From the NCBI RefSeq assembly GCF_002237555.1, contig NZ_CP022540.1:1434501-1498500 (forward strand): a stretch of 64,000 nt of DNA, in the 5' to 3' direction. A program made the translations under genes and the position numbers. Every line of letters starts with the position of its first letter. The first letter of the stretch is position 1. Shown piece by piece: positions 9,776-30,308 of the stretch. Source of the stretch: Antarctobacter heliothermus (GTDB lineage: Bacteria; Pseudomonadota; Alphaproteobacteria; Rhodobacterales; Rhodobacteraceae). The notes beneath the pieces are model-generated. The model saw only the letters and a program-made list of their open reading frames with translations. It ran no database searches and was not told the origin of the DNA.

Positions 9776-11535
9776 TTTCTACGAAGCTCTCTGGTGGCCT
9801 GGATGTCGGGTTCGAACGTATTGGGGTCGATCACACAGCCGTAATCGAGGCGTGCACCGCCAACAGAGACATAGCCATTGCGCACATCCTCCACGACTTT
9901 GTCGAGTGGCCTTCCGAACGGATCGCCAACGCCGCCCCCGCCTGGCGGGCGCATCTCAAAAGACCCGTTTTTTTGCGCGTGCAGCCTGCTGGCTCCGTTC
10001 GCCGCGCGACGTGTGCCGTCGGCATCGATGGCAAAGCGTTGCCCGATTTTCGGCGCCATCAGCGTGGATTTTGCCCCCGCAACCGATACAGGTGGCAAAT
10101 GTTCGATCGTACCGTGAAAACGGCTGGTTTGTTCGTGGTCGATCGCTTCCCAAGAACAATCCATCCCCAAGCCTCCACGCCAATGGCCTGCCCCGGCGCT
10201 GTCGGTGCGGTACTCCATGCTGTGAAATCTGATCGGCAGTTCGTGTTCGACGAGTTCTATGGATTCACGCTGGACCGCACCGCCTGTGCCTTCTGATCCG
10301 ACAGCAGACCAGCCATCCCCACCCCAGGTTGCGCCTGAACCACCTGCTGCCGCATTGGGATGATAATGCGCATAGAACGTATCGGTATCCGGATCGACGC
10401 CGGACAGGGTCGTAGGAGAGGCCGCGCACCATCCCGCAGTCTTGTTCTCGTCCGCGATCACCTCTGTAAAGGCCATGCGCACGCTGTCGATGATCTCGTT
10501 AAAGGGCTGTGACGTGCACCCCAGTACGGCCGCAGGCGGCACTTGGGCATTCACGATTGTTCCCAGTGGACCATAGTCGATTTCGATCGTGCGAAAGATC
10601 CCGTCATTGAACGGGGGCTTCAGTCGAAGGGAAATTGCTGCAGAATGATAGACTGCGGCCTGCGTTGCACCAAAGGGTGAGTTTCGCACATCCCGCAACT
10701 GCGGCGGGGCGCTCAGTGAGATTTTCAACTGGTCGCCGAAGACTTTCAGTTCTGTTTTGATCTCGTAATTGTGGTCCCCCTCGCGGGCGGACATGAATGC
10801 GCTGCCATGATAGACACCGTCTTGCAGCTGCATGATCGCTTTCCGGGCCTTTTGTTCATTGCGGTCATAAAGCTCTTCGACGCAGTTTTTGAAGGTCTCA
10901 AGGCCATATCTTGAGAGCAAGGCCCTCATGCGTTTTTCGGCAACCGTGCAGGCGGCCATCATCGACAGCATGTCGCTGCGCTGCTGCTTCTGAAAACGGA
11001 AATTGTCGAATAGCAGGTCGAGGATGTCTTGCCGGTTCTGCCCTTTTTCAATGATCTTTATTGGCGCCAGTCTTAGACCCTCGCCGTATACATCAGTCTG
11101 GGCTCTGCGCAGGTCAGCCATCGCGACACCGCCTATATCCAGCCAATGCGCGCGGATAACGGTCCAGCAAAACAATTCGTCGCCTTCGAAAATGGGTCGC
11201 AAAAGTGCGACATCATTCAGGTGGGTCCCTCCGCAAACCGGATCATTGCAAAGGAAAACATCCTCTGCATAGACGCGGCCCTCGAATGCCTTCGCAACAG
11301 CGCGACACACAAGTGGGATACTTCCGACCTGTACGGGTAGCTCCGCATCACCCTGAACCAGTTGCCGGCCATCCCAGTCGCAAAGCGAACAAGAGAAGTC
11401 CTTTGCGAGTTTGAAGACGGCGCTTCTGGCTGTCCTGATGACGACGCTGCTCATCTCGTCGACCACCGAAGACAAGGCGCCCGAAATAGTGGACAAAGTT
11501 GTAATGTCAGTGGCGTTTGGCGTTTTCTCTAGCAT
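9772..11535 (-). CDS. Hydantoinase/oxoprolinase family protein, B subunit
   Basis: The product is the 587-residue HyuB-type subunit paired with HyuA. Family blocks include SSVVDEMSSVVIRTARS near the N-terminus, DPVCGGTHLNDVALLRPIF (a metal-site region) near residue 115, and the C-terminal glycine-rich PPGGGGVGDPFGR. The start is the ATG at 11535. A GTG 17 codons upstream would also be in frame, but the family N-terminus fits the shorter form better. It is first in the hyuBA unit. About 95 bases upstream lies the conserved operator module at 11604-11644, which suggests control by the LysR regulator encoded at 15733-16659. Confidence 0.88.
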   Translation of the reverse strand: MLEKTPNATDITTLSTISGALSSVVDEMSSVVIRTARSAVFKLAKDFSCSLCDWDGRQLVQGDAELPVQVGSIPLVCRAVAKAFEGRVYAEDVFLCNDPVCGGTHLNDVALLRPIFEGDELFCWTVIRAHWLDIGGVAMADLRRAQTDVYGEGLRLAPIKIIEKGQNRQDILDLLFDNFRFQKQQRSDMLSMMAACTVAEKRMRALLSRYGLETFKNCVEELYDRNEQKARKAIMQLQDGVYHGSAFMSAREGDHNYEIKTELKVFGDQLKISLSAPPQLRDVRNSPFGATQAAVYHSAAISLRLKPPFNDGIFRTIEIDYGPLGTIVNAQVPPAAVLGCTSQPFNEIIDSVRMAFTEVIADENKTAGWCAASPTTLSGVDPDTDTFYAHYHPNAAAGGSGATWGGDGWSAVGSEGTGGAVQRESIELVEHELPIRFHSMEYRTDSAGAGHWRGGLGMDCSWEAIDHEQTSRFHGTIEHLPPVSVAGAKSTLMAPKIGQRFAIDADGTRRAANGASRLHAQKNGSFEMRPPGGGGVGDPFGRPLDKVVEDVRNGYVSVGGARLDYGCVIDPNTFEPDIQATRELRRK

Positions 11536-11603
11536 GAAAGGTCCATTTTCCGGCAGCGTAAGAACGTCGTGTCTTGCAACAATCACACTGCAGGTGGAAT
11601 AAA

Positions 11604-11644
11604 TTCAAATTGAAAGAAGTGCCGTTTGAATAGGCCGGCCTTAT
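11604..11644 (-). promoter_or_regulatory. LysR-type operator module upstream of hyuBA
   Basis: Read on the minus strand: dyad ATAAGGCCGGCCTAT (11644-11630; T-N11-A form), an 18-base spacer, then AATTTGAA (11611-11604). The same module with the same spacing precedes the permease gene at 15651-15691, and a weaker copy precedes the binding-protein gene. This positional repeat across three promoters of one cluster is strong evidence for a shared regulator site. Confidence 0.6.
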
Positions 11645-11683
11645 GAGCGTAGGGCGGTCCAGCGTCCCATCTGACCGATCACA

Positions 11684-12673
11684 TCAATCGTCCAAATGGC
11701 ACGCGACCATGTGGCCATCCGATGAAGTCGGCCGCATTTGTGGCACCACAGATCGACATTCCTCGTGGACAAACGGACACTGTGCAGCATAACGGCAGCC
11801 CGTTGTGCCCCCTGCATCTTTTGGGGCATCAGGCGCAGCCCGCACGGTTCGGCCTTTTCGCCTCATCATTTTCATCGAGGGGACTGCGGCGAGCAAGGAT
11901 TTCGTATAGGGGTGTTTAGGTGATTTGAACAACGATATCCGGTCACCGACTTCGACGATTCGCCCCATGTACATGACTGCTATCCGGTCGCACATGTATT
12001 GGACCACACCCAAATCATGGGAGATGAAGAGATAGGTCAGTTTGAGTTCTGTCTGGAGCGTCCGCAGCAGGTTTAGGACCTGGGCCTGTATGGCCACGTC
12101 AAGTGCCGACACAGGTTCATCGCAAAGAACAAGTTTAGGGCCGGAGGCCAGAGCGCGGGCAATTCCGACACGCTGGCGCTGTCCGCCAGAAAACTGGTGC
12201 GGAAAAAGGTTGAACTGATCCGGCCTCAACCCGACCTTTGCCAGTAAATCCCTGGCTTTTTCATCGCGAAGTTGTGGTGAATGAAGGTTCATCACATCCA
12301 TCGGTTCGCGAACGATCGCACCAATGCGCGTCCGCGGATTGAGCGATGAGTAGGGATCCTGAAAGATGAACTGAAAGTCCTGTCGGATCTTCGTCAGTGC
12401 CTTTGCGCTCAACCCGCATAGTTCTTGTCCGTCGAAGAGGATTGATCCTGACTCCGCCTGAACCAACTGCATGATTGCCAATGCTGTGGTCGACTTACCA
12501 GAGCCACTTTCACCGACGATACCAAAGGTTTCGCCCCGTTCGATACTGAACGACACATTGTCCACTGCTTTGACGGGGTGGGATTTCCCGAAAATCCCCT
12601 CGGATTTCTGCGAGAAACTTACGTTCAGGTCAGTTACCTTGAGCAAAGGGGGTGAAACGTTGTTTTCAACCAT
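11684..12673 (-). CDS. Peptide/nickel-type ABC transporter ATP-binding protein (DppF-like)
   Basis: This is a 329-residue ATPase subunit of an oligopeptide/dipeptide-type importer. Walker A is GESGSGKS at residues 54-61, the ABC signature is FSGGQRQRVGIARAL, and Walker B is LVLCDEPVSALD, followed by an H-loop in LFISHDLGVVQY. The C-terminal cysteine cluster (GCRYAAQCPFVHEEC) is typical of oligo_HPY tails of this family, which can bind an iron-sulfur cluster. Its start overlaps the preceding ATPase gene by 8 bases. It is the last gene of the permease-ATPase operon. Confidence 0.93.
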   Translation of the reverse strand: MVENNVSPPLLKVTDLNVSFSQKSEGIFGKSHPVKAVDNVSFSIERGETFGIVGESGSGKSTTALAIMQLVQAESGSILFDGQELCGLSAKALTKIRQDFQFIFQDPYSSLNPRTRIGAIVREPMDVMNLHSPQLRDEKARDLLAKVGLRPDQFNLFPHQFSGGQRQRVGIARALASGPKLVLCDEPVSALDVAIQAQVLNLLRTLQTELKLTYLFISHDLGVVQYMCDRIAVMYMGRIVEVGDRISLFKSPKHPYTKSLLAAVPSMKMMRRKGRTVRAAPDAPKDAGGTTGCRYAAQCPFVHEECRSVVPQMRPTSSDGHMVACHLDD

Positions 12674-13682
12674 TTCCAGCTGTCCTCTGCCCTTGTGGAT
12701 GCCAGCAAATCAGCTGATGCCCGCCCTCGAACACATGCAGCGGTGGATCACGATCCCAGCACTCAGATGTGGCAAAGCCGCAGCGCGCGGCAAAAGCACA
12801 CCCAGTCCCGACATCCATCAACGAAGGTACGACACCGGGGATCTCTTCAAGAAACGGTCTTTCCGATCCGGGATCTGTATCGATCTGCGGCACGCAGTTC
12901 ACCAACCCTTGGGTATAGGGGTGTTGCGGCGCGGACAGGACCTGTGTGACTGCGCCCTGTTCCACGATCCGCCCCGCATACATCACCGCCACACGCGATG
13001 CCATCTCGGCCACTACGCCCATGTCGTGAGTGATCAGGAAAATGGATGTTCCGACCTCATTTTGCATCTTTTCCAGCAAATCGAAAATCTGCGCCTGTAC
13101 CGTGACATCAAGCGCGGTCGTCGGCTCATCCGCGATTAGAACCAGTGGCTCACAGGCCAGCGCAATTGCAATCATCACCCTTTGGCGCATACCGCCGGAA
13201 AACTGGTGTGGGTAATCATTAAAACGCTTTTGCGGAAAAGGAATATCGACGGCGGTCAACATCTCAATGGCATGAGCATCAGCCTTTTTCCGGTCCCAGC
13301 CGCGATGAACCCGGATCGTTTCCGAAATTTGTTCACCCACGGTCAGGACAGGATTGAGTGACGTCATCGGCTCTTGGAAAATCATCGAGATATCGTTGCC
13401 ACGGACAGCACTCATAGCCTTTTCTGAAAGCTCGAGAAGATCCTTGCCTGACAGGGCTATCCTGCCGCCGGTCACCCGTCCGTTTGGTTGCGGCAGCAAC
13501 CCCATGATGGACAGGGCTGACATGCTCTTGCCGCTCCCCGATTCCCCGACGATCCCAAGCGTTTCACCCCGCTTGAGGTCAAAGCTGACCCCATTCAGCA
13601 CTGTCATCGTGCCTCGCCGGGTCTTGAATTCTACCGACAAGCGATCAACGTGAAGCACGGTTTGCTCTTTTTCTCGGGTCAT
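12666..13682 (-). CDS. Peptide/nickel-type ABC transporter ATP-binding protein (DppD-like)
   Basis: The product is the second ATPase (338 aa) of the same importer; DppD and DppF types form a heterodimer. Visible motifs are Walker [10 protein letters not shown]-loop [11 protein letters not shown], signature [15 protein letters not shown], Walker [15 protein letters not shown] and a C-terminal cysteine motif [15 protein letters not shown]. It starts one base after the DppC-like stop codon region and overlaps the DppF-like gene by 8 bases, indicating a tightly coupled operon. Confidence 0.93.
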
Positions 13683-13683
13683 C

Positions 13684-14562
13684 TCAACGCTCCCTCAGCT
13701 TGGGGTTCAGCGCATCGTTCAGGCCATCACCAATAAGGCTCACGCTCAACACGGTAAGAAAGATGGCAAAGCCCGGGAATGTCACAGTCCACCAGCCATC
13801 CAGAAGATAGGGGCGGTTCTGTCCGATCATCAAACCCCAACTCATCACGTTGGCATCGCCAAGTCCCAGAAAACTCAAACCAGATTCAAACAAGATCGAT
13901 ACGCCGATGGCCAGGGTCGCCGACACAATTAGCGGCGGCATGGCATTGGGCAAAATGACCCGCCAGATGATCCGCGTATTGCTGGACCCGATCACTTTGG
14001 CCGATGCGACGTATTCCAGATTGCGCAACTGCATGAACTCAGCCCGGGCCAGCCGCGCGGTTTGCGGCCATACAACCAGTCCGATAGCCACGATGATCGT
14101 ATAGACGGAGGGCGAAAACAGCGTGACAAGTGCCATAGCGAACAACAATGCCGGAAGGACTTGGAAAAACTCGGTCACCCGCATCAGGACGTCATCGACC
14201 GTCTTGCCGTAAAACCCGGCAAAGGCACCTACCAGAAGCCCGATAATCACGGTGATGCCCGCAGCACAACAACCGATCAGGATGGTAACCCGACCTCCGT
14301 TGATCAGACCGGCGACAACATCGCGCCCCAGAAAGTCAGTGCCGAGCGGTAAATTGGGATTGGTAAGCGGCGGGATTAATGGGCTCGCAATCATCGAGTA
14401 GGGGTCCACACCGTACAGGCTGGGCCCGACTGCTGTTATCAGCAGAATGAAGCCAAGTATGATTAGCCCCGATAGTGCTGCCTTATTCTGCCGAAACACC
14501 CGCCACCCTTCGAGGAAAGGTTGTTCCGCTGCAGTCACTGAGTGGTTCTCGTTGCGTGTCAT
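13684..14562 (-). CDS. Peptide/nickel-type ABC transporter permease (DppC-like)
   Basis: This is a 292-residue inner-membrane permease with an N-terminal soluble stretch and about six hydrophobic segments. The DppC-type LGTDFLGRDVVAGLINGGRVTI motif region lies near residues 74-95, and the EAA coupling loop (EFMQLRNLEYVASAKVIGSS) follows mid-protein. It forms the translocation pore with the DppB-like subunit encoded 10 bases upstream. Confidence 0.92.
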   Translation of the reverse strand: MTRNENHSVTAAEQPFLEGWRVFRQNKAALSGLIILGFILLITAVGPSLYGVDPYSMIASPLIPPLTNPNLPLGTDFLGRDVVAGLINGGRVTILIGCCAAGITVIIGLLVGAFAGFYGKTVDDVLMRVTEFFQVLPALLFAMALVTLFSPSVYTIIVAIGLVVWPQTARLARAEFMQLRNLEYVASAKVIGSSNTRIIWRVILPNAMPPLIVSATLAIGVSILFESGLSFLGLGDANVMSWGLMIGQNRPYLLDGWWTVTFPGFAIFLTVLSVSLIGDGLNDALNPKLRER

Positions 14563-20910: not shown

Positions 20911-21939
20911 TTACACCGCCACGGCCGGAGCTTTGTAGACGCCACCTCGGGCCATCAGGGCCCAAACGATGCGCGCCATTTTGTTCGCCAGCGCCACCCG
21001 CACCAACATTGGTGGCTTGTGCGTCAGCATGCGGCCAAGCCAGGTGCCGGGCTTGGCCGCCGCGTGGACATGCCGCTTTATGATGACGCTGTTAGCCCCG
21101 ATGATGAGCAAGCGTCGCAAAGATCGTTCGCCCATTCGGGTCGTGGCCCCGAGCCGTTGCTTGCCACCGGTCGAATGCTGTCGTGGCACTAGACCAAGCC
21201 ATGCCGCAAAGTCTCGGGCCTTACGGAAAGTCTCGGGCGGCGGGGCCAACACCGCGATGGCCGTGGCGATAAGTGGACCAATGCCCGGGATAGTCATCAG
21301 CCGTCGGGCCACGTCATTCTCTTTTGCCCGGCGGGCGATCTCGGCATCCAACTTCCCAATCTCTGCCTCGAGGTGGGCGAGTGCCAGAACCAGCACCTTC
21401 AAAGTGGCGATGGCATCGGTGGGTATGCTGCTGTCCGGGTTCTCAACGATGGCGATGAGTTTTGACGCGTTGGCCGCCCCCTGCGGCACGATCTGCCCGA
21501 ATTCAGTCAGGTGGCCACGTAGGGCATTGATCGCCTGTGTCCGCTGCCGGATCAGCAATTCCCGTACGCGGAAGATCATCGCCGCGCCTTGGGCCTCTTC
21601 GCTCTTCACCGGCACAAAACGCATGGTTGGGCGAACTGCCGCTTCACAAATAGCCTCGGCATCTGCCGCATCGTTTTTCTGGCGCTTGACGAAGGGCTTG
21701 ACGTAAGCAGGTGGGATCAGCCGAATGTCATGCCCCAATTTGCCGATCTCGCGCCCCCAAAAGTGGGCGCTGCCGCATGCTTCCATCGCGACAATGCAAG
21801 GCGGCAGCTGGCTGAAGAACTCCAACACCTGCATTCTCCTCAGCTTCTTGCGCAGAACTGCACGACCCGACGCATCAGCGCCATGCACCTGAAACACATT
21901 CTTTGCCAGATCGACTCCGACCGTGATAATCTCCGACAT
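20911..21939 (-). CDS. IS110-family (IS1111 group) transposase
   Basis: The product is a 342-residue RNA-guided DEDD recombinase of an IS1111-type element. The N-terminal RuvC-like domain shows Asp in VGVDLAKNVFQVHG, Glu in VAMEACGSAHFWGRE and Asp in KNDAADAEAI. The C-terminal Transposase_20 domain shows LMTIPGIGPLIATAIAV with the downstream serine region. I start at the ATG preceded by GGGGAG; an earlier in-frame start adds 14 residues without family support. No frameshift or stop is present, so it is probably functional. Confidence 0.92.
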   Translation of the reverse strand: MSEIITVGVDLAKNVFQVHGADASGRAVLRKKLRRMQVLEFFSQLPPCIVAMEACGSAHFWGREIGKLGHDIRLIPPAYVKPFVKRQKNDAADAEAICEAAVRPTMRFVPVKSEEAQGAAMIFRVRELLIRQRTQAINALRGHLTEFGQIVPQGAANASKLIAIVENPDSSIPTDAIATLKVLVLALAHLEAEIGKLDAEIARRAKENDVARRLMTIPGIGPLIATAIAVLAPPPETFRKARDFAAWLGLVPRQHSTGGKQRLGATTRMGERSLRRLLIIGANSVIIKRHVHAAAKPGTWLGRMLTHKPPMLVRVALANKMARIVWALMARGGVYKAPAVAV

Positions 21940-22086
21940 GACCGCTCCCCTTTGTGGATCCTCACAGACCCACCTTGGCACACAGATGCCGTCGGGGGGC
22001 GGTTACATCATCAGAGCTATAAAAGTGGGTGAAGCCAAAATAAATCTGTACCAGTCTTTCCATAACAACATGATGGATCGACTTGA

Positions 22087-22106
22087 TGGTGCCAGGAGAG
22101 GACTCG
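22087..22106. repeat. att site, distal end of island (tRNA-Leu 3' duplicate)
   Basis: TGGTGCCAGGAGAGGACTCG repeats the 3' end of tRNA-Leu, including the CCA, at 30223-30243 in the same orientation, apart from one missing C. This is the expected footprint of tyrosine-integrase insertion at a tRNA 3' end and defines the far border of the island. Confidence 0.75.
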
Positions 22107-22667: not shown

Positions 22668-22808
22668 ATGGATCCCTTCCTTCAACGTCACCTCGACCTT
22701 TGCCAGCGCAGCTTTGAAGACATGCTGCGTGATGGTTCTTGGCCGTGGCTGGATTCGCCAAATTCTGAAGATCTGGTAGAGTCCAAGGATAACAGCCACG
22801 ATCTATGA
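22668..22808 (+). CDS. Small protein translationally coupled to the serine recombinase
   Basis: This is a 46-codon gene whose TGA overlaps the recombinase ATG (ATGA), with GAGGTG immediately before its own ATG. The product is acidic with several aromatic residues (MDPFLQRHLDLCQRSF ... GSWPWLDSPNSED). The coupling and clean ribosome site argue that it is a real gene, perhaps a recombination directionality or regulatory partner, but I know no assigned function. Short proteins of this look in front of recombinases seem familiar from related bacteria; that is recollection, not a search. Confidence 0.6.
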   Translation: MDPFLQRHLDLCQRSFEDMLRDGSWPWLDSPNSEDLVESKDNSHDL

Positions 22809-24301
22809 AGCCGTGTTTTGGATACATCCGAGTGTCCTCCCAGAAGCAAGGCGATGGGGTGTCACTCGACGCACAGAAAGATGCCATTACGGAATTTGCG
22901 AGTCGTGAGAACCTCACCATCATTAAGTGGTTTGAAGAGAAGGAAACCGCCGCCAAGGCCGGGCGCACTGTGTTCGGTCAGATGATGAGGGAGCTAAAGC
23001 GCGGCGGCGCGGCTGGTCTCATCATTCACCGGATTGATCGCTCGGCCCGGAACTTCCGCGACTGGGGTGCGATCGGCGAACTATCCGACGCTGGCGTCGA
23101 TGTTCACTTCGCCACCGAAAGCCTCGACTTCCGCTCTCGTGGTGGTCGCCTGGTCGCGGACATTCAGATGGCGGTCGCCGCCGGCTATTGCCGCAACCTC
23201 TCGATTGAGGCGCGGAAAGGCATCAACGGGCGTCTGAAGCAGGGGTTTTACCCGTTCAATGCTCCGATTGGCTACCTGAACCAGGGTGGTGGCCAGTTGA
23301 AAAGCTTGGATCCGGTGCGGGCGCCGCTGATCAAACAGCTCTTCGAGTTGTACCTGACCGGCGAGCATTCGATCAGATCGTTGCACCAGGAAATGGTCGC
23401 ACGCGGCTTCACCAGCCGAGGTGGCAAGCCGATCTCACGCCGAACCGTTGAGAACATCCTCCAGAACCAGTTCTATTGTGGCCTGACGCAGAACGGCCGC
23501 ACGGGTGAAATTTTCCAAGGCAAGCACGAACCGCTGATCTCGGTGGCGGACTTCGAAAGGGTCGATGCCATCAAGCAAGGCCGGTACACCAAGAAGAAGA
23601 CCAAGCATGATCATTTGCTGCCCAAGCTTTTTGCCTGTGCCGCCTGCGAAACCGTGCTGACGCCAGAGCGCCAGAAGGGCCGTGTCTACTACCGCTGTCA
23701 TACAGCTGGGTGTGTTGGGAAGACGGTGCGCGAGGAGCAGCTGGAAATTGCCATCGTAGCGCAGCTGTCCCAGTTGCAGTTCAGCGATGAGGACATTGCC
23801 ACGCTGCGCCGTCAGTATGAAACGTGGAATGTGCCAGTGAAACTGCAGGCCGAGCGAAAGCACCTCGAGTTGCAACTGGCGGATGTGAAGGATCGCCAAG
23901 CCAGGCTGACCGACTATCTGTTGGATGGAACGCTTGATCGTGACGCCTACACGGAAAAGAAGCAAGCGCTGCAGATTGAGATCGCTCGACTGGAAGAAGA
24001 GTATCGGAACCTGGACAATAAAAAGCTTTCGACCGTTGATGTCGAGAAATTCTTCGAACTTATGAAAAGCCTTGCCGGGCTTTATATTTCAGCAAAACCA
24101 CCGATCAAACGGGGTATCGTTGAAAACTGTTTTTCGAACCGGGTGTGGACCGGAGAAAACGTTGAACTAGAGCCGTCTGATCGTTTGATTCGGGCAAGAA
24201 CTGACGTGCTTGCCCCATGTGGCGGGGGTACCCGAGACACTTTTCGAACTTTCATCCAACTCTTTGACAGCTGCGGAAATTGCAATGCTCTAGATGGCTA
24301 G
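22805..24301 (+). CDS. Large serine recombinase
   Basis: This is a 498-residue site-specific recombinase. The N-terminal resolvase domain has the catalytic serine in GYIRVSS (Ser11/12) and the arginines in HRIDRSARNFRDW. The Recombinase domain follows (GINGRLKQGFYPFNAPIGYL ... VENILQNQFYCGLTQNG). Next come a zinc ribbon with cysteines in FACAACETVL and YRCHTAGC, and a coiled-coil segment (about residues 345-420). All expected parts are present, so it may be active. It lies inside an island whose adjacent-to-tRNA integrase is of the unrelated tyrosine type, so it may belong to a nested element or act on its own target. Confidence 0.9.
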   Translation: MKPCFGYIRVSSQKQGDGVSLDAQKDAITEFASRENLTIIKWFEEKETAAKAGRTVFGQMMRELKRGGAAGLIIHRIDRSARNFRDWGAIGELSDAGVDVHFATESLDFRSRGGRLVADIQMAVAAGYCRNLSIEARKGINGRLKQGFYPFNAPIGYLNQGGGQLKSLDPVRAPLIKQLFELYLTGEHSIRSLHQEMVARGFTSRGGKPISRRTVENILQNQFYCGLTQNGRTGEIFQGKHEPLISVADFERVDAIKQGRYTKKKTKHDHLLPKLFACAACETVLTPERQKGRVYYRCHTAGCVGKTVREEQLEIAIVAQLSQLQFSDEDIATLRRQYETWNVPVKLQAERKHLELQLADVKDRQARLTDYLLDGTLDRDAYTEKKQALQIEIARLEEEYRNLDNKKLSTVDVEKFFELMKSLAGLYISAKPPIKRGIVENCFSNRVWTGENVELEPSDRLIRARTDVLAPCGGGTRDTFRTFIQLFDSCGNCNALDG

Positions 24302-24345: not shown

Positions 24346-26530
24346 ATGAAAAAGCTGAAAATTAATCTTGAAAATTGCTATGGTATTGGAAGCTTCGATC
24401 ACCTTTTCGATTTTTCAAAATCATCAACGTTCATAGTGTATGCGCCAAATGGAACGATGAAGTCCTCTTTAGCTCGGACTCTTCGCTTTTTCGCCGACCG
24501 AAAGACAGATCCGCCATGCGATCGATTTTTTCCAGATCGAGTTCCCAAATTCGAATTGATCCTTGATGATCAGCTCACTGAGGGTAATGTCGACATCTTG
24601 GTTGTTGATCCGGAGCAACCTGATTATGATGCAGCACACAAAATAAGCTCATTCGTGGCAAGTAAGGAGCTGAAGCGTGCGTATGACGCGATATACGAAG
24701 ACCTAGAGAAGAAAAAGACTGAGTTTGTTCGCAAGTTGAAGAGGACATCGCAAAGTACTGACTGTGAAAATGAATTCTTTGACGCATTCCAAAATGATGA
24801 TCAGCAAAATTTCTTCGATTTGTTGACGGTGGCCTTTCAAGCGCTCGGCGAAGATACTAGGCTTTACAAGTTCAGGTACAACGATGTTTTCGACAGGAAA
24901 GGCAACGTGAAGAAGTTCCTTGAGAAAAAACCAAGAATACCTGGATCAGTACATTGACTTATATACAGGGCTGCTTCGTCAATCGACAGTGTTCAATAGC
25001 TCGGAGAAATCTTTTGGGACATATCAAGCAGATCAGATTGTTAAGTCTATTGCCGACAACTCGTTTTTTGAGGCAGGCCACAGAATTGAACTGGCCGGAA
25101 ATAAGGTCGTGGGGTCTTCTGAGGATCTACAAGAAATTGTTGCCGAAGAGATCAATCGAATTGTTGGTGACCCTGAACTAAAGAAAATTTTTGACAAGGT
25201 TGACAAGGCTATCGGGGCAAACGTCGAGCTTCGCTCGTTTAAAACACTGATTGAAAAGGAGAACCCTCTTCTTGTTGAGCTCAGGGATTACGAAAAGTTC
25301 AGAAAAGATGTTTGGCTTGGCTATCTCATTGAACTGAAATCTGACCTTCAGGAGATCTGTGAGTTCTACGAGGCACAGAAGGACGGACTCAAGAAGATTT
25401 TCGACGAGGCCAAGAAAGAGGTGTCAATTTGGCAGGAGCTAGTCACGACATTCAACTCTCGATTTTATGTGCCGTTTGAAGTTTCTCTCTCCAACCAGGA
25501 GGATGTAATCCTAAAGGAAGATGGGGCAAATTTGGAGTTTGCTTATTCCGATCGAAAACAAGAGTCGGTAAGCTGTGAAAGAAATGCACTTCTAAACACA
25601 ATCAGCAAAGGCGAGCAGCGGGCCTTCTATATACTTCAAGTGCTCTTTGAGATCGAATCGCGAAGAAGCAAAGCGGCAAGCTGTCTTATTGTATTCGACG
25701 ACATTGCGGACTCCTTCGACTATAAAAACAAGTACGCGATCATCGAATACATAAAGGACCTGCATGAATCCTCGGACTTCAATATCTTAATTCTTACCCA
25801 CAATTTTGATTTCTACAGGACTGTTGCATCGCGCCTCTACTTAAGCAGACGGCATGCGGTTCTTATGGGAGCGAAGGATGATGATGGCATCGTACAACTT
25901 CTTCGGGGACAATACGTGAACGATGCTTTTGAGCATCTTTCTGGCCGAATTTCCGAAGAAAAGGTATTTGTGACGTTGATCCCGTTCCTGAGGAATCTTG
26001 TGCAGTATTCGGGGCAAGAAGATTCCGACGATTTTCTGACGCTCACGAAGTGCCTTCACTTGAAGGATGGATCTGGAGCAATACTGGCCGAAGACGTTGT
26101 TCAGATTTGGCGGAATCGGTTTGGCCGATACCAAACCGAGAAATTCGAATTCGGACAAGAACCCGTCATAGACATGATATTCCGTCTAGCTGACGCGATT
26201 GTTTTGGAAGGTGACGCTGTTGACGAAATAGTCCTTGAGAACAAGGTAACATTGGCGATAGCAGTTCGGTTGAAAGCGGAAGACTTCATGATCGCATCCA
26301 TCGAAGACTTAGACCTCGATCAGATTGCCAGTGTTCAAACCGCTGGGTTACTAAAACAGTACAAGGACTGCCCCGCATATGACCCTGAAGCAGGCAAAAT
26401 CTTGAACAAGGTCTCCCTGATGACTCCGGAGAACATTCACCTGAACGCCTTCATGTACGAGCCACTGATTGATATGTCGGTCAGGCATTTGACCGATCTC
26501 TATGATGAGGCGAAGACATTGGGAGCCTAG
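24346..26530 (+). pseudogene. P-loop (ABC/SMC-like) ATPase gene split by a +1 indel in an A6 run
   Basis: Two frames together encode one ATPase. The first (24346-24957) contains a variant Walker A, APNGTMKSS, at residues 33-41 (Met in place of the last Gly). The second continues with an ABC-like signature SKGEQRAFYIL, Walker B CLIVFDDIADSFD and H-loop ILTHNFDFYRT. The shift falls at AAAAAA 24925-24930. Removing one A restores KKFLEKNQEYLDQYIDLY and one 727-residue protein of exact codon length. AT-rich codon use sets it apart from the chromosome. The frame change could be mutation, polymerase slippage or a sequencing error. The start is the ATG after GAGGGA. Ten bases separate it from the Mrr-STAND gene, so the two form an operon. 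No nuclease domain was recognised in it. Confidence 0.75.
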
Positions 26531-26540
26531 TGGTAAGTGT

Positions 26541-28813
26541 ATGACAAGATTCAAAAACCTATCTCATATCGACTTCGAAGAGCTATGCCGAGACATCCTT
26601 GGAGCAGAAACTGGGGTGCGTTTTTCCGCGTTTGGTCCAGGCCCGGACGGCGGCGTTGATGGCAGGCACTCAAAAGGAGAAGAAGCCACAGTTCTCCAGT
26701 GCAAGCACTATGCAGGTTCAACATTTTCAAATCTCAAGGCTTCAGTGAAAAAAGAAGTTCTGAAGTTGTCGGCCTTGAAGCCAAAACGATATTTACTGTG
26801 CACATCGCACTCACTCACACCGCAAAAAAGTGATGAAATCGCTGAACTGATTGGTGACTATCTTCAGAGCCCGGAAGATGTTTGGGGGCAAGAAGACCTC
26901 GAGGAGGCTATTCGACGCCACCCCGAAATTGAAAAATCTCATATGAAGCTATGGCTGTCGAGTACCGCTGTTTTGGAGCGGATTCTGCATTCCGGATTGG
27001 AAACATACACTCAAGCGACAAAGGACGAAATTCTAGGCGATCTCAAAGTTTACGTCCGAAACCCTAGTTTTGATGAGGCTGTGAAAAAACTTGAGCGCGA
27101 GAAAATCCTGATAGTCTCTGGTCCGCCTGGTGTTGGCAAAACTACGTTGGCGCGAATGGTGGCCTATCACTACCTCAACGATGGCTGGAACTTTTATGCG
27201 ATTAATTCACTGGAAGATGGATTCTCGAAGATCGATGACAGCAAGCCAACGATTTTCTTCTTCGACGATTTTCCTGGACGAATTGAACTGGATCGTCAGT
27301 CACTGCTTCAAAGAGACACCGCGTTGGCAACCTTCGTTCGAAGGGTAAGAAACTCAAAGAACGCTCGTTTCATCCTTACTACCCGCGCACACATTTTCGA
27401 AGAGGCACGGAACCTGTCTGATCACGTCGATGACCGAAGGCTGCAACTGGCGAAATACTTGCTTGACGTAGGTAGTTATACACGGGAGATAAAGTCTCAT
27501 ATTCTATTTAACCACCTGTCTGTGTCCAGCCTGAGTCAGGGTCATTTTTCGTCACTCTTGGAAGATGATTGGCTTAAGAAAATAGTGGACCACAAAAACT
27601 ATAACCCCCGTTTGATCGCCTCTGTATCGAGCGATTGCCTGGATGATGTCGTTGCAATCAATTACCCAAAGTACATCTATCACGCGCTAGAGAATCCTGA
27701 TCTAGTTTGGAGTAAGCCATACAGGTCTTTAGATATGAGGTTGCAGAACCTCCTGGTCGCTCTCTTTTTGGAAATCAGATCGGACAGGAAATTGACGAGC
27801 TGAGGGAAAACTACTCAGAGTTACACAGAACAGTCAGCGCTTACTACTCTCAGCCAACAAAACCAGGGGATTTCGAGACAGCGCTTCGAGCGCTTGAATC
27901 AGGGTTTATTTCAATCTCTGGCAAAAGGGTGATCTCCATTAATCCGTCTGTAAGGGATTTTCTGAAAGCTTACCTGACTGAAAGAGAGTACTTGAACCTA
28001 CTCCCCCAGACGGCTCGACGTGTTGATTGGGCTGCTTCGGTTTGGAGGCACGTCAAGGGTCAACTAAAAACGCACCCTCCAGAGGTTAAGAAGTTTGTAC
28101 AGTTGTTTAAGGGTGTCGCCAATCGCATTGAAGAAACGCCATCTCAGCGACATGTCAAATCCAGCAGCAACTTCTATTCAGTTTATTCAGATGATCTTTC
28201 TCTTTCAGGCAGACTTGAACTTCTGTTTGATTGGTGGGAGCAGTCTGAGGACGAATACTTTCTCGATAGATGTCTTGAGGTTCTGGCGTCTGGGAAAGTA
28301 GAGTTGGTACCATGGCGCGACGGTCGGGTATTAGCTGAGTTGCATTGGCAGGTATCCAACTTTGTTGATTCTGAGATCGCCCAAAAGGATAAACTCTTGA
28401 GGCTGATCGAACAGAGACTTGTTCATACAATTGAGGGAGGGCTGCCTGTTGATGAAATTCTATCGATCGTCGAGGCGGTGGACGAATTCATGGCTGACAC
28501 GGCTCCCGACGAGGTTACCGAAGCACTCGAAGGTGTCGTTGGATACGAATTCAGTGAGACCGAAGAGGCAATAGGTCACCTCAACACGGAAAGCGAACTT
28601 TCCGAACACATGGAACACCTTGAGCAGTTGGCAAAGGTGACAGGTATTAATCCAGATTCTGCGCTTAAGGTCGTGTCGGAGAAACTGGTTCAGTACGAAA
28701 GGCCTGACTACGATGAGCATAGGGGAAGCTTCACCCGTCCAAAGCAAAGCCAGCGTACTGAGTTCAGCGATGAGGCCTTGGTCAGTCTATTCTCGAACCT
28801 GGTTGATCGTTGA
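26541..28813 (+). pseudogene. Mrr-like nuclease fused to a STAND NTPase, split by an indel in a T5 run
   Basis: Restored, this is a 757-residue protein. Residues about 5-115 form an Mrr-type PD-(D/E)xK nuclease (FEELCRDILG ... GPDGGVDG ... LQCKHY, catalytic Asp36/40 and Gln53-x-Lys55). A predicted nSTAND3-type NTPase follows (Walker A GPPGVGKT at 194-201, Walker B IFFFDDFPG, Arg-rich RFILTTRAH sensor) and then a helical C-terminal region likely to sense a partner. The frame changes at TTTTT 27765-27769: the first frame stops at 27801-27803, while adding one T gives FFGNQIGQEIDELRENY and reads to 28813. Nuclease-STAND proteins of this kind act in anti-phage defence (Avs and relatives); this length is shorter than classical Avs proteins. 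Encoded with the ATPase gene 10 bases upstream. Confidence 0.75.
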
Positions 28814-28866
28814 AGGCTCCTGATCAGAGTGCTGTTTTTCAGAAAGGAGAAGTGTTCCAGGAGATG

Positions 28867-30057
28867 TTAGACATCCGTGATTTTGAAAGTTTCGAAAAGA
28901 TCCGCCCACTCCCGCATCAACTCCACCCGCTGCTCCCAATACGTCGCTCGATTGTACGTTCGACGGATCGCGTTCTTGTCCTGGTGGGCCAGCGCTGCCT
29001 CGATCACATCCGGGTCATAGCTCCGGTTGTTGAGGATCGTGCTGGCCGTAGCGCGGAAGCCGTGGGCGGTCACCTCGTCTTTCGTGTATCCCATCCGGCG
29101 CAGCGTAGAGTTGAATGCATCCTCAGACAGCCACTTCCGGTTGGAATGGATCGACGGGAACATCAACTCAACACCGTCGATTATCGGCCAGTTCCGCTCC
29201 ACAATGGCCATGGCTGGTTCTGAGAGCGGCACAATGTGTTCACGACGCATCTTGGTGCGCTCGGACGGGATCGTCCACATTCGCTTGTCTCGGTCGATTT
29301 CCTGCTTCCTGGCGCCCCGCACTTCTCCTGGGCGCGTCATGGTGAGGATCTGGAACATGAGGGCATCTTTGATCACGCCAGCACCGGTGTATTCCTCAAG
29401 GTCGCGCAGGAACTGGCCGAAGGCTGTCTCGTCGGTGATGGCGGCGCGATTGGTCACCTTAACCGGCAGCAAGGCTTCCTTCACCGCGTTGGTCGGGTCG
29501 GTCTCGGCCCGCAGCGTGACGATTGCTAGACGGAAGACACCAGAGAGTGTGCCGCGCAGCTTTTTCGCGGTCTCGCGCCGTCCGCTGTGTTCGACCTTTT
29601 TCAGGAGGTGCAGGATCTCTGCCGAGGTGATCTCGGCAATCGGTCGGTCATGCAGTGCCTCGGCCAGTGTATGGATGTGCCACCGCTTCTTCTTGAGCGT
29701 GATCTCGGCGAGTTCACGGTCTTCAGCTTGCTGCAGGTACTCTTCAGCAACGAGAAGGAAGGTGGTCCGGGCTTTTGTCTCCGCCTCGATCTCATCCAGA
29801 CGCTTCTGCACGGTCGGATCAGTACCTTCCGCCAGCTGCACGCGGATGGCGTCACGTTTCGCTCTGGCTTCTCGCAGCGACACGTCGGGGTACGATCCGT
29901 GCGCCAGCAATCGCTCCTTGCCTCGGAACGTGTACTTCTGCCGCCAGAGCTTGGAGCCGTTTGGGTTCACCAAGACGAATAGGCCGAGGGAATCGTAGAG
30001 CTTGTACGGTTTCTCCGCCGTCTTTGCCTTCTTGATTTTGAGGTCAGTGAGCGCCAC
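28867..30057 (-). CDS. Tyrosine-type site-specific integrase (DUF4102/P4-like)
   Basis: The product is a 396-residue integrase that would insert and excise the island at tRNA-Leu. It has an N-terminal DUF4102 arm-binding domain (ALTDLKIKKAKTAEKPYKLYD), a core-binding domain, and a catalytic domain with Arg in TMTRPGEVRGARK, His-x-x-Arg in TAHGFRATAST, His in LAHQDKNAIR and Tyr in the RTYNRATY region. I choose the GTG preceded by GGAGGTGATACCCCA instead of the earlier ATG; family N-termini begin at this point. It reads away from the tRNA, in the orientation usual for tRNA-borne islands. All catalytic residues are present. Confidence 0.9.
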   Translation of the reverse strand: MALTDLKIKKAKTAEKPYKLYDSLGLFVLVNPNGSKLWRQKYTFRGKERLLAHGSYPDVSLREARAKRDAIRVQLAEGTDPTVQKRLDEIEAETKARTTFLLVAEEYLQQAEDRELAEITLKKKRWHIHTLAEALHDRPIAEITSAEILHLLKKVEHSGRRETAKKLRGTLSGVFRLAIVTLRAETDPTNAVKEALLPVKVTNRAAITDETAFGQFLRDLEEYTGAGVIKDALMFQILTMTRPGEVRGARKQEIDRDKRMWTIPSERTKMRREHIVPLSEPAMAIVERNWPIIDGVELMFPSIHSNRKWLSEDAFNSTLRRMGYTKDEVTAHGFRATASTILNNRSYDPDVIEAALAHQDKNAIRRTYNRATYWEQRVELMREWADLFETFKITDV

Positions 30058-30087
30058 TGGGGTATCACCTCCACCATTCCCGCCTGA

Positions 30088-30145
30088 TACCCCAGAACCG
30101 TACCCCAAAGTGGTGGGGTATTGGGTGGGGTAGCATGTTCAGCTA
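30088..30145. repeat. Candidate integrase arm-type sites, tRNA-proximal end
   Basis: TACCCCA lies at 30088-30094 and 30101-30107, and its complement TGGGGTA at 30114-30120 and 30126-30132. All four are spaced 12-13 bases apart. GCATGTTCAGCTA follows at 30133-30145. These words recur near the distal end of the island. The cluster overlaps the region just upstream of the integrase start, so integrase binding could also regulate its own gene. Confidence 0.5.

Positions 30146-30222: not shown

Positions 30223-30308
<86 letters not shown>

Follow-up and report, generated by a model that had tools for sequence, protein, structure and literature searches.

The window analysed here, a 64,000-nucleotide stretch of the Antarctobacter heliothermus genome (contig NZ_CP022540.1), holds two adjoining genes at 24346-28813 on the + strand. 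The upstream gene encodes an ATPase of the PADLOC family PDC-S46 (S46), and the downstream gene encodes a protein of the family PDC-S73 in which an Mrr nuclease is fused to an nSTAND3 NTPase (the STAND protein). We propose, with a probability of about 50%, that the pair is a two-layer defence cassette in which the STAND protein would sense phage and cut DNA and the ATPase would then cut RNA, and that it travels as cargo of a tRNA-targeted element. The pair is the main cargo of an 8152-bp (8.15-kb) integrative element that lies between 15-bp direct repeats and contains a serine recombinase, the ATPase/STAND pair and a tyrosine integrase. A first-pass annotation of the window had placed two genes, 10 bases apart, at this same position. 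It had also described an MKS Walker A, an ABC-like signature and an H-loop in the ATPase, a fusion of Mrr to nSTAND3 in its neighbour, and a tRNA-Leu island around both. All of these features were confirmed, and the 10-base gap is the same in both intact relatives of the pair.

In the window the ATPase gene and the STAND gene are each split into two overlapping reading-frame pieces. The gene pair is not a chance reading because the two ATPase pieces together cover a single profile continuously (positions 1-190 and 191-718 of the 719 in PDC-S46), because an intact homologue, P0001 of Mameliella sp. CS4 (727 aa), is 91% identical to the longer piece, and because the ratio of nonsynonymous to synonymous substitution (dN/dS) is low. 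P0001 itself matches the PDC-S46 profile at 1.9e-248, and the N-terminal ATPase piece shares 95% identity with the intact homologue over residues 1-194. Intact STAND proteins of 757 residues were found in Mameliella sp. CS4 and Thiosulfatihalobacter marinus. Intact relatives are full-length on PDC-S73 (P0148 over 7-748 and P0172 over 8-750); the N-terminal STAND piece of the window matches PDLC05079 over 6-413 of 752, and no Pfam or PADLOC family was found for the second piece at 27929-28810.

The pair moves as a unit and is under purifying selection. Between T. marinus and the window, 24364-28814 aligned at 92.6% identity over 4452 columns with two gapped positions. Outside the pair, the recombinase of T. 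marinus is just 70% alike and no other flank is alignable; there the pair, at 10001-14468 of locus L032, is next to a tRNA-Cys gene. The dN/dS between the intact copies is 0.135 for the ATPase and 0.125 for the STAND protein, and 0.06-0.19 for the window pieces. The synonymous distance of the pair is 0.19-0.50, depending on the window piece, and 0.21-0.27 between the intact copies, mostly lower than the distances between the window and CS4 for the integrase (0.49), the recombinase (0.53) and a flanking gene (0.81). Because dN/dS shows no relaxation, either both genes were under selection up to the very recent past or the breaks in frame are errors. Among 12 Mameliella CS4 genes traced in the window, only the ATPase and STAND genes are broken into two frames; the remaining 10 are unsplit. 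Real decay and assembly error are both possible, and the local copy in this strain may be inactive, its genes being broken or mis-sequenced.

The boundaries of the element were examined in relatives. The syntenic island of Mameliella sp. CS4, whose serine recombinase is 90% identical to that of the window, is bounded at both ends by the same 15-bp repeat. Two of five other same-genus genomes (G763 and G764) have an empty site, with a single repeat copy and the CS4 flanks side by side. G762 is a 100% match to CS4 itself, and G761 and G365 carry the flanking gene but have no tRNA-Leu within the stretch examined. The empty site is thus that of the CS4 island, the window's own left flank being rearranged: in the genome of the window, the gene flanking the CS4 island on the left is found at a distance of about 684 kb. 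Directly left of the element, window positions 21600-22020 have four further genome copies at 100% identity and are probably an insertion sequence that altered the original left flank. The G+C content of the pair is 43-50%, compared to 54-65% in the neighbouring kilobases, and the pair is the most A+T-rich stretch.

The motifs of the ATPase were compared within its family, the S46 counts out of 80 resting on the best 80 of at least 234 relatives from species genomes. (In the S46 search, 7998 proteins were scored and 6348 of them reached E 0.001 or better; these 6348, of which the best 120 were listed, need not all belong to S46.) The methionine of the MKS Walker A is a family trait (Met in 76/80, Leu in 4/80). 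The lysine that follows and the final serine are kept in 80/80 relatives, and so are the residues checked in the ABC signature, the double-D Walker B and the H-loop. A C-terminal R-x3-E and a histidine are likewise invariant, and this invariance suggests that the three residues, together with their neighbours, resemble an active site. An R-x3-E...H arrangement is also seen in the anticodon nucleases RloC and PrrC. The triad of RloC is given as Arg-X3-Glu-X36-52-His in the cited passages of PMC2610378 and PMC3874168; the Glu-His spacing in S46 is 50-60 and falls within that range in 32/80 relatives. S46 resembles RloC in its Rad50-like ABC head with a THN-type H-loop and in its size, about 725 aa compared to 658-897 in passages of the same two papers; it differs in its Walker A, which is MKS or MKT. 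When S46 was compared with nine RloC proteins by hhalign, the ATPase heads aligned with a probability of 98.2%. Whole-chain structure searches of the predicted ATPase model had SMC, Rad50, MukB, PtuA/retron, Lamassu and ABC transporter chains among the matches listed, and in this model the head is of the SMC/Rad50 type. The ATPase is probably more than a plain sensor and has a candidate RNase site of its own; S46 probably works like RloC without being filed as one.

In the STAND protein, Pfam identified both the Mrr and the nSTAND3 domains in the N-terminal piece. The candidate Mrr residues (Asp at 26658-26660 and Lys at 26703-26705, which we take to be such from the Mrr family) and the P-loop are invariant in 50 aligned STAND relatives. 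The predicted model of the protein has middling confidence (predicted local distance difference test, pLDDT, 76.4; predicted template modelling score, pTM, 0.56) and matches chains of Orc/Cdc6, Avs4, CED-4 and plant NLR proteins, for the most part across the NTPase core, whose fold is accordingly a modelled one. The C-terminal region of an intact homologue is mostly helical in its predicted model and is the probable sensor. STAND proteins of this build combine a sensor and a DNA-cutting effector in one chain. The N-terminal Mrr domain was also seen in TIR-domain proteins, in one locus by Pfam (L028) and in several rhizobial and roseobacter plasmid records among H51-H65 by annotation. It also matches the PADLOC Aga models, which are presumably Argonaute-associated.

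The neighbours of S46 were clustered and Pfam was run on the cluster representatives. The clusters include HsdR, HsdM, HsdS, type III Mod and Res, and type IIG-like methylases. A restriction-modification gene lies within 600 bp of S46 in 16/80 loci and within the flanks in 22/80. Restriction-modification open frames number 25, 9, 6, 5, 1 and 1 in successive kilobases from S46 and then none, with 111-148 flank-kilobases available in each of the first nine distance bins. In six of the 80 loci (L044, L058, L061, L079, L085 and L091), S46 is placed between hsdM or hsdS and hsdR. This linkage in part of the family resembles that of PrrC and, more weakly, that of RloC, for which a passage of PMC2610378 reports 8/73 linked to type I or III systems.

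We also surveyed the slot before the STAND gene in 25 STAND search matches, taken without the window, L032 and L039 from 12/44 plasmid records, 6/12 order matches and 8/8 phylum matches (of which one is also in the order set). These loci were not chosen blind, as L003 and G054 were known beforehand to hold S46. Five weaker order matches (G034, G194, G209, G310 and G382) and the Mrr-only match of G159 (L136) were left out, and the stop codon is included in the distances. In 12/25 loci (13/25 if a broken fragment in L144 is included), the STAND gene has an SMC/OLD-type ATPase no more than 450 bp away, which is a pattern and not a test. Six of those 12 loci have ATPases of the AAA_13/RloC kind (S46 in 2, S06 in 3, RloC in 1). 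In G470 (L164), an RloC with a zinc hook (CEFC) and the triad is encoded on the same strand as a PDC-S73 gene and ends 4 bases upstream of it, in the slot that S46 occupies in the window. In G054, S46 precedes the gene of a divergent Mrr-like nSTAND3 protein by less than 100 bp, and on a Sinorhizobium numidicum plasmid a PDC-S06 ATPase with CxxC lies 55 bp before the STAND gene. PDC-S06 ATPases matching an RloC profile were seen in tandem with the same Mrr-STAND family in L004, L131 and L148, with a CxxC motif in both of those checked for it, L131 and L148; PDC-S06 may hold RloC relatives.

From these data we infer DNA cutting, RNA cutting, their trigger and the sequential action of the two proteins. 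In the first layer, the helical C-terminus of a compact Avs-like STAND protein would recognise an infection signal, the nSTAND3 NTPase would assemble and the N-terminal Mrr domain would cut DNA. In the second layer, the SMC/Rad50-type ABC head of S46 would control the C-terminal helical domain with its R-x3-E...H triad. Upon DNA breakage or disturbance of the first layer, S46 would cut RNA, most likely tRNA, as RloC and PrrC do, and translation would stop. RloC is activated by linear DNA and by inducers of DNA breaks, even in a natural host with its restriction genes deleted (a passage of PMC3874168). Because an Avs-type nuclease breaks DNA and RloC responds to DNA breaks, the two parts together would form a serial response with a built-in trigger. 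A wider form of this proposal is tentative and, taken whole, rather unlikely: the pair would be a relay operon of a phage-sensing, DNA-breaking STAND protein and a DNA-break-responsive, tRNA-cutting ABC ATPase, and PDC-S46 would be a widespread third ABC-type anticodon nuclease, without zinc hook, that partners DNA-cutting systems generally (restriction systems of types I, III and IIG and, in the window, a STAND nuclease).

Several results weigh against the two-layer cassette. The CxxC zinc hook of RloC was found in 0/80 S46 relatives, and the Glu-His spacing is above the published RloC range in 48/80. The C-terminal domains of S46 and RloC did not align as profiles (hhalign probability under 1%), and the S46 C-terminal profile A4 (31 sequences) had no PDB match even at E 10; one RloC protein (L122) likewise had no PDB relative by sequence at E 0.01. 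AAA_13 matches one of three intact S46 proteins tested (P0012, and neither P0001 nor P0032), and no HEPN chain was among the 50 matches listed per whole-chain search, in which the helical domain was not searched alone. Restriction-modification genes are absent from the searched flanks of 58/80 S46 loci, and a STAND gene is next door in 1/15 RloC-type loci (1.5-kb flanks). RloC-type sensing of DNA ends may not carry over to S46, since the zinc hook is missing and the spacing exceeds the range; the missing hook may mean a different trigger.

The two families are also mostly apart. Among 390 genomes of the order, S46 was found in 12, S73-like genes (E 1e-20) in 13 and both in 4; the genes are adjacent in the window and G054 and on different contigs in G272. 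In G159, a match to the Mrr part alone lies about 20 kb from S46 on the same contig. A STAND gene is in the flanks of 4/80 S46 loci, two of them tandem (L032 and L039) and two convergent loci of Pseudomonas that are one near-identical mobile unit. Six divergent STAND proteins used as further queries added no S46 locus with a STAND neighbour. Conserved adjacency, which the first-pass annotation had made decisive for its proposal, thus fails for the families at large but holds in one Roseobacteraceae lineage, where the pair is a unit; related pairings recur elsewhere.

Since the families are mostly apart, most S46 loci have no restriction-modification gene in the flanks searched and STAND neighbours vary, both proteins may work alone. 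The pair could then be two separate systems, each a defence of one gene, brought onto one element by defence-island assembly and not functionally linked, a possibility to be taken seriously, although we doubt it. It agrees with the separate PADLOC model for each protein, with the convergent genes in Pseudomonas, which form no operon, and with the variety of STAND neighbours (GajA, TrlF/Ppl-like and OLD-like ATPase genes in several arrangements, and YhaN/SbcC-like and Fic genes). Against it stand the 10-base spacing, the movement of both genes together between islands located at two distinct tRNA genes, and the recurrence in unrelated genomes of ATPase-before-STAND tandems with S46, RloC and S06.

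The first-pass annotation had the ATPase sense or process phage DNA and the STAND protein execute, and a Lamassu- or Septu-like licensing of the nuclease by the ATPase would fit the adjoining genes and a head fold that matches PtuA (Septu, retron) chains, with one Lamassu chain among the matches listed. These roles are probably wrong, and we regard such licensing as unlikely: S46 has its own invariant triad, a candidate RNase site, and restriction-modification neighbours like those of PrrC; 76/80 S46 loci have no STAND gene in their flanks; STAND proteins bring their own sensor and effector; and in one genome the slot holds RloC, a self-contained enzyme. It is very improbable that the ATPase, instead of being an effector, silences the STAND nuclease or confers immunity to it, with the roles of PrrC-type silencing exchanged, for although its gene lies upstream, 10 bases before the STAND gene, and the silencing of PrrC by restriction proteins is a precedent (a passage of PMC2610378), the invariant C-terminal R, E and H and their neighbours resemble an active site and 23/25 STAND loci have no S46 within 450 bp.

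The two-layer cassette was also compared with known systems. Like PrrC of EcoprrI, S46 joins an ABC ATPase to a candidate RNase and can be encoded inside restriction operons, but it is twice the size of PrrC (341-416 aa in a passage of PMC2610378), its partner here is a STAND nuclease, and PADLOC gave no PrrC match to the ATPase at E 0.1. The STAND protein has an Mrr nuclease plus a STAND NTPase as in Avs4, which recognises the phage portal protein, but it is half as large, with 757 aa compared to 1570 positions in the Avs4 model of PADLOC. That model matched it over residues 179-244 (the P-loop) only, at E 0.0049 and 12.1 bits, and Orc/Cdc6 and NLR chains score about as high as Avs4 against the STAND model. 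Avs1-4 nucleases cut phage and host DNA upon sensing conserved phage proteins, according to a passage of PMC12931631. PARIS, Septu, Lamassu and retron-PtuAB also place an SMC/OLD-type ATPase beside a nuclease effector (PARIS AriB cuts tRNA; PMC12409363, PMC12839542). They use other ATPase families and effectors, however; the window pair has no TOPRIM or HNH partner, and no LmuB or PtuA model of PADLOC matches the ATPase at E 0.1 or better. The full-length profile matches are to PDC-S46 and PDC-S73, separate models that are not a pair and carry neither description nor mechanism; we take the PDC-S label to mean a single-gene phage-defence candidate. Neither name occurs in the literature searched, in which at least three papers contain PDC-S06, and no title among the matches listed joins RloC with Mrr-STAND. 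The idea of an undescribed system therefore stands insofar as no named system was found for the pair, and falls short in that each family already has a PADLOC model.

Features of the element and of the gene pair in the window
Feature	Position	Strand	Evidence or remark
Left attachment repeat, 15 bp	22092..22106		Identical to the copy inside tRNA-Leu; two copies only in the window
Large serine recombinase, 498 aa, unbroken	22805..24301	+	Pfam Resolvase 3.5e-25, Recombinase 2.6e-16
ATPase (PDC-S46 family), N-terminal piece	24346..24957	+	PADLOC PDLC05023 1.3e-50, profile 1-190; contains the Walker A
Walker A APNGTMKSS of the ATPase	24442-24468	+	Sequence
ATPase (PDC-S46 family), C-terminal piece	24920..26530	+	PDLC05023 3.7e-193, profile 191-718; ABC signature, Walker B, H-loop
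Candidate RNase triad of the ATPase	Arg 26267-26269, Glu 26279-26281, His 26438-26440	+	Invariant in 80/80
Mrr nuclease + nSTAND3 NTPase protein (PDC-S73 family), N-terminal piece	26541..27803	+	Pfam nSTAND3 2.4e-48, Mrr_cat 5.2e-8; PDLC05079 9.7e-125
P-loop GPPGVGKT of the STAND protein	27120-27143	+	Sequence
STAND protein, C-terminal piece	about 27764-28813	+	Holds the last part of the STAND module and the helical C-terminus; 92% identity to the intact homologue over residues 409-757
Tyrosine integrase, 413 aa, unbroken	28867..30108	-	Pfam Phage_integrase 2.5e-21, Arm-DNA-bind_3 4.8e-24
tRNA-Leu (CAG), integration site	30223..30308	-	tRNA call
Right attachment repeat, 15 bp, within tRNA-Leu	30229..30243		Repeat search

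Three further observations concern S46 loci. The only phage record with S46, MT836015 (L142; marked UNVERIFIED, "Bacteriophage sp." from fecal samples), also holds a STAND gene. It was rejected as an independent pair, because a Pseudomonas plasmid and two Pseudomonas genome loci share 99.6% identity with it across about 10 kb (7.5 kb for one of the loci), and its phage label looks wrong. On an Acinetobacter baumannii plasmid (L005), S46 lies near transfer genes; the plasmid is conjugative and has aminoglycoside resistance genes. In two genomes (L094 and L077), DUF2130 genes overlap the ends of the S46 gene, and their products are another possible partner.

Taken together, the pair is a real, mobile and selected two-gene defence cassette with a probable RNase arm, which the first-pass annotation had not noted, and the possible link between its Avs-like and RloC/PrrC-like parts is testable. 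The intact pairs come from environmental bacteria, which makes direct testing in laboratory Escherichia coli possible. The case also cautions that ATPases beside nucleases in defence islands need not sense for their neighbour. If the two-layer reading is true, it would give a function to a large unnamed ATPase family, and a serial DNA-then-RNA response would be coded in 4.5 kb. The PrrC principle, in which a DNA-cutting system is guarded by an RNase that stops translation, would then extend from restriction enzymes to STAND immune receptors.

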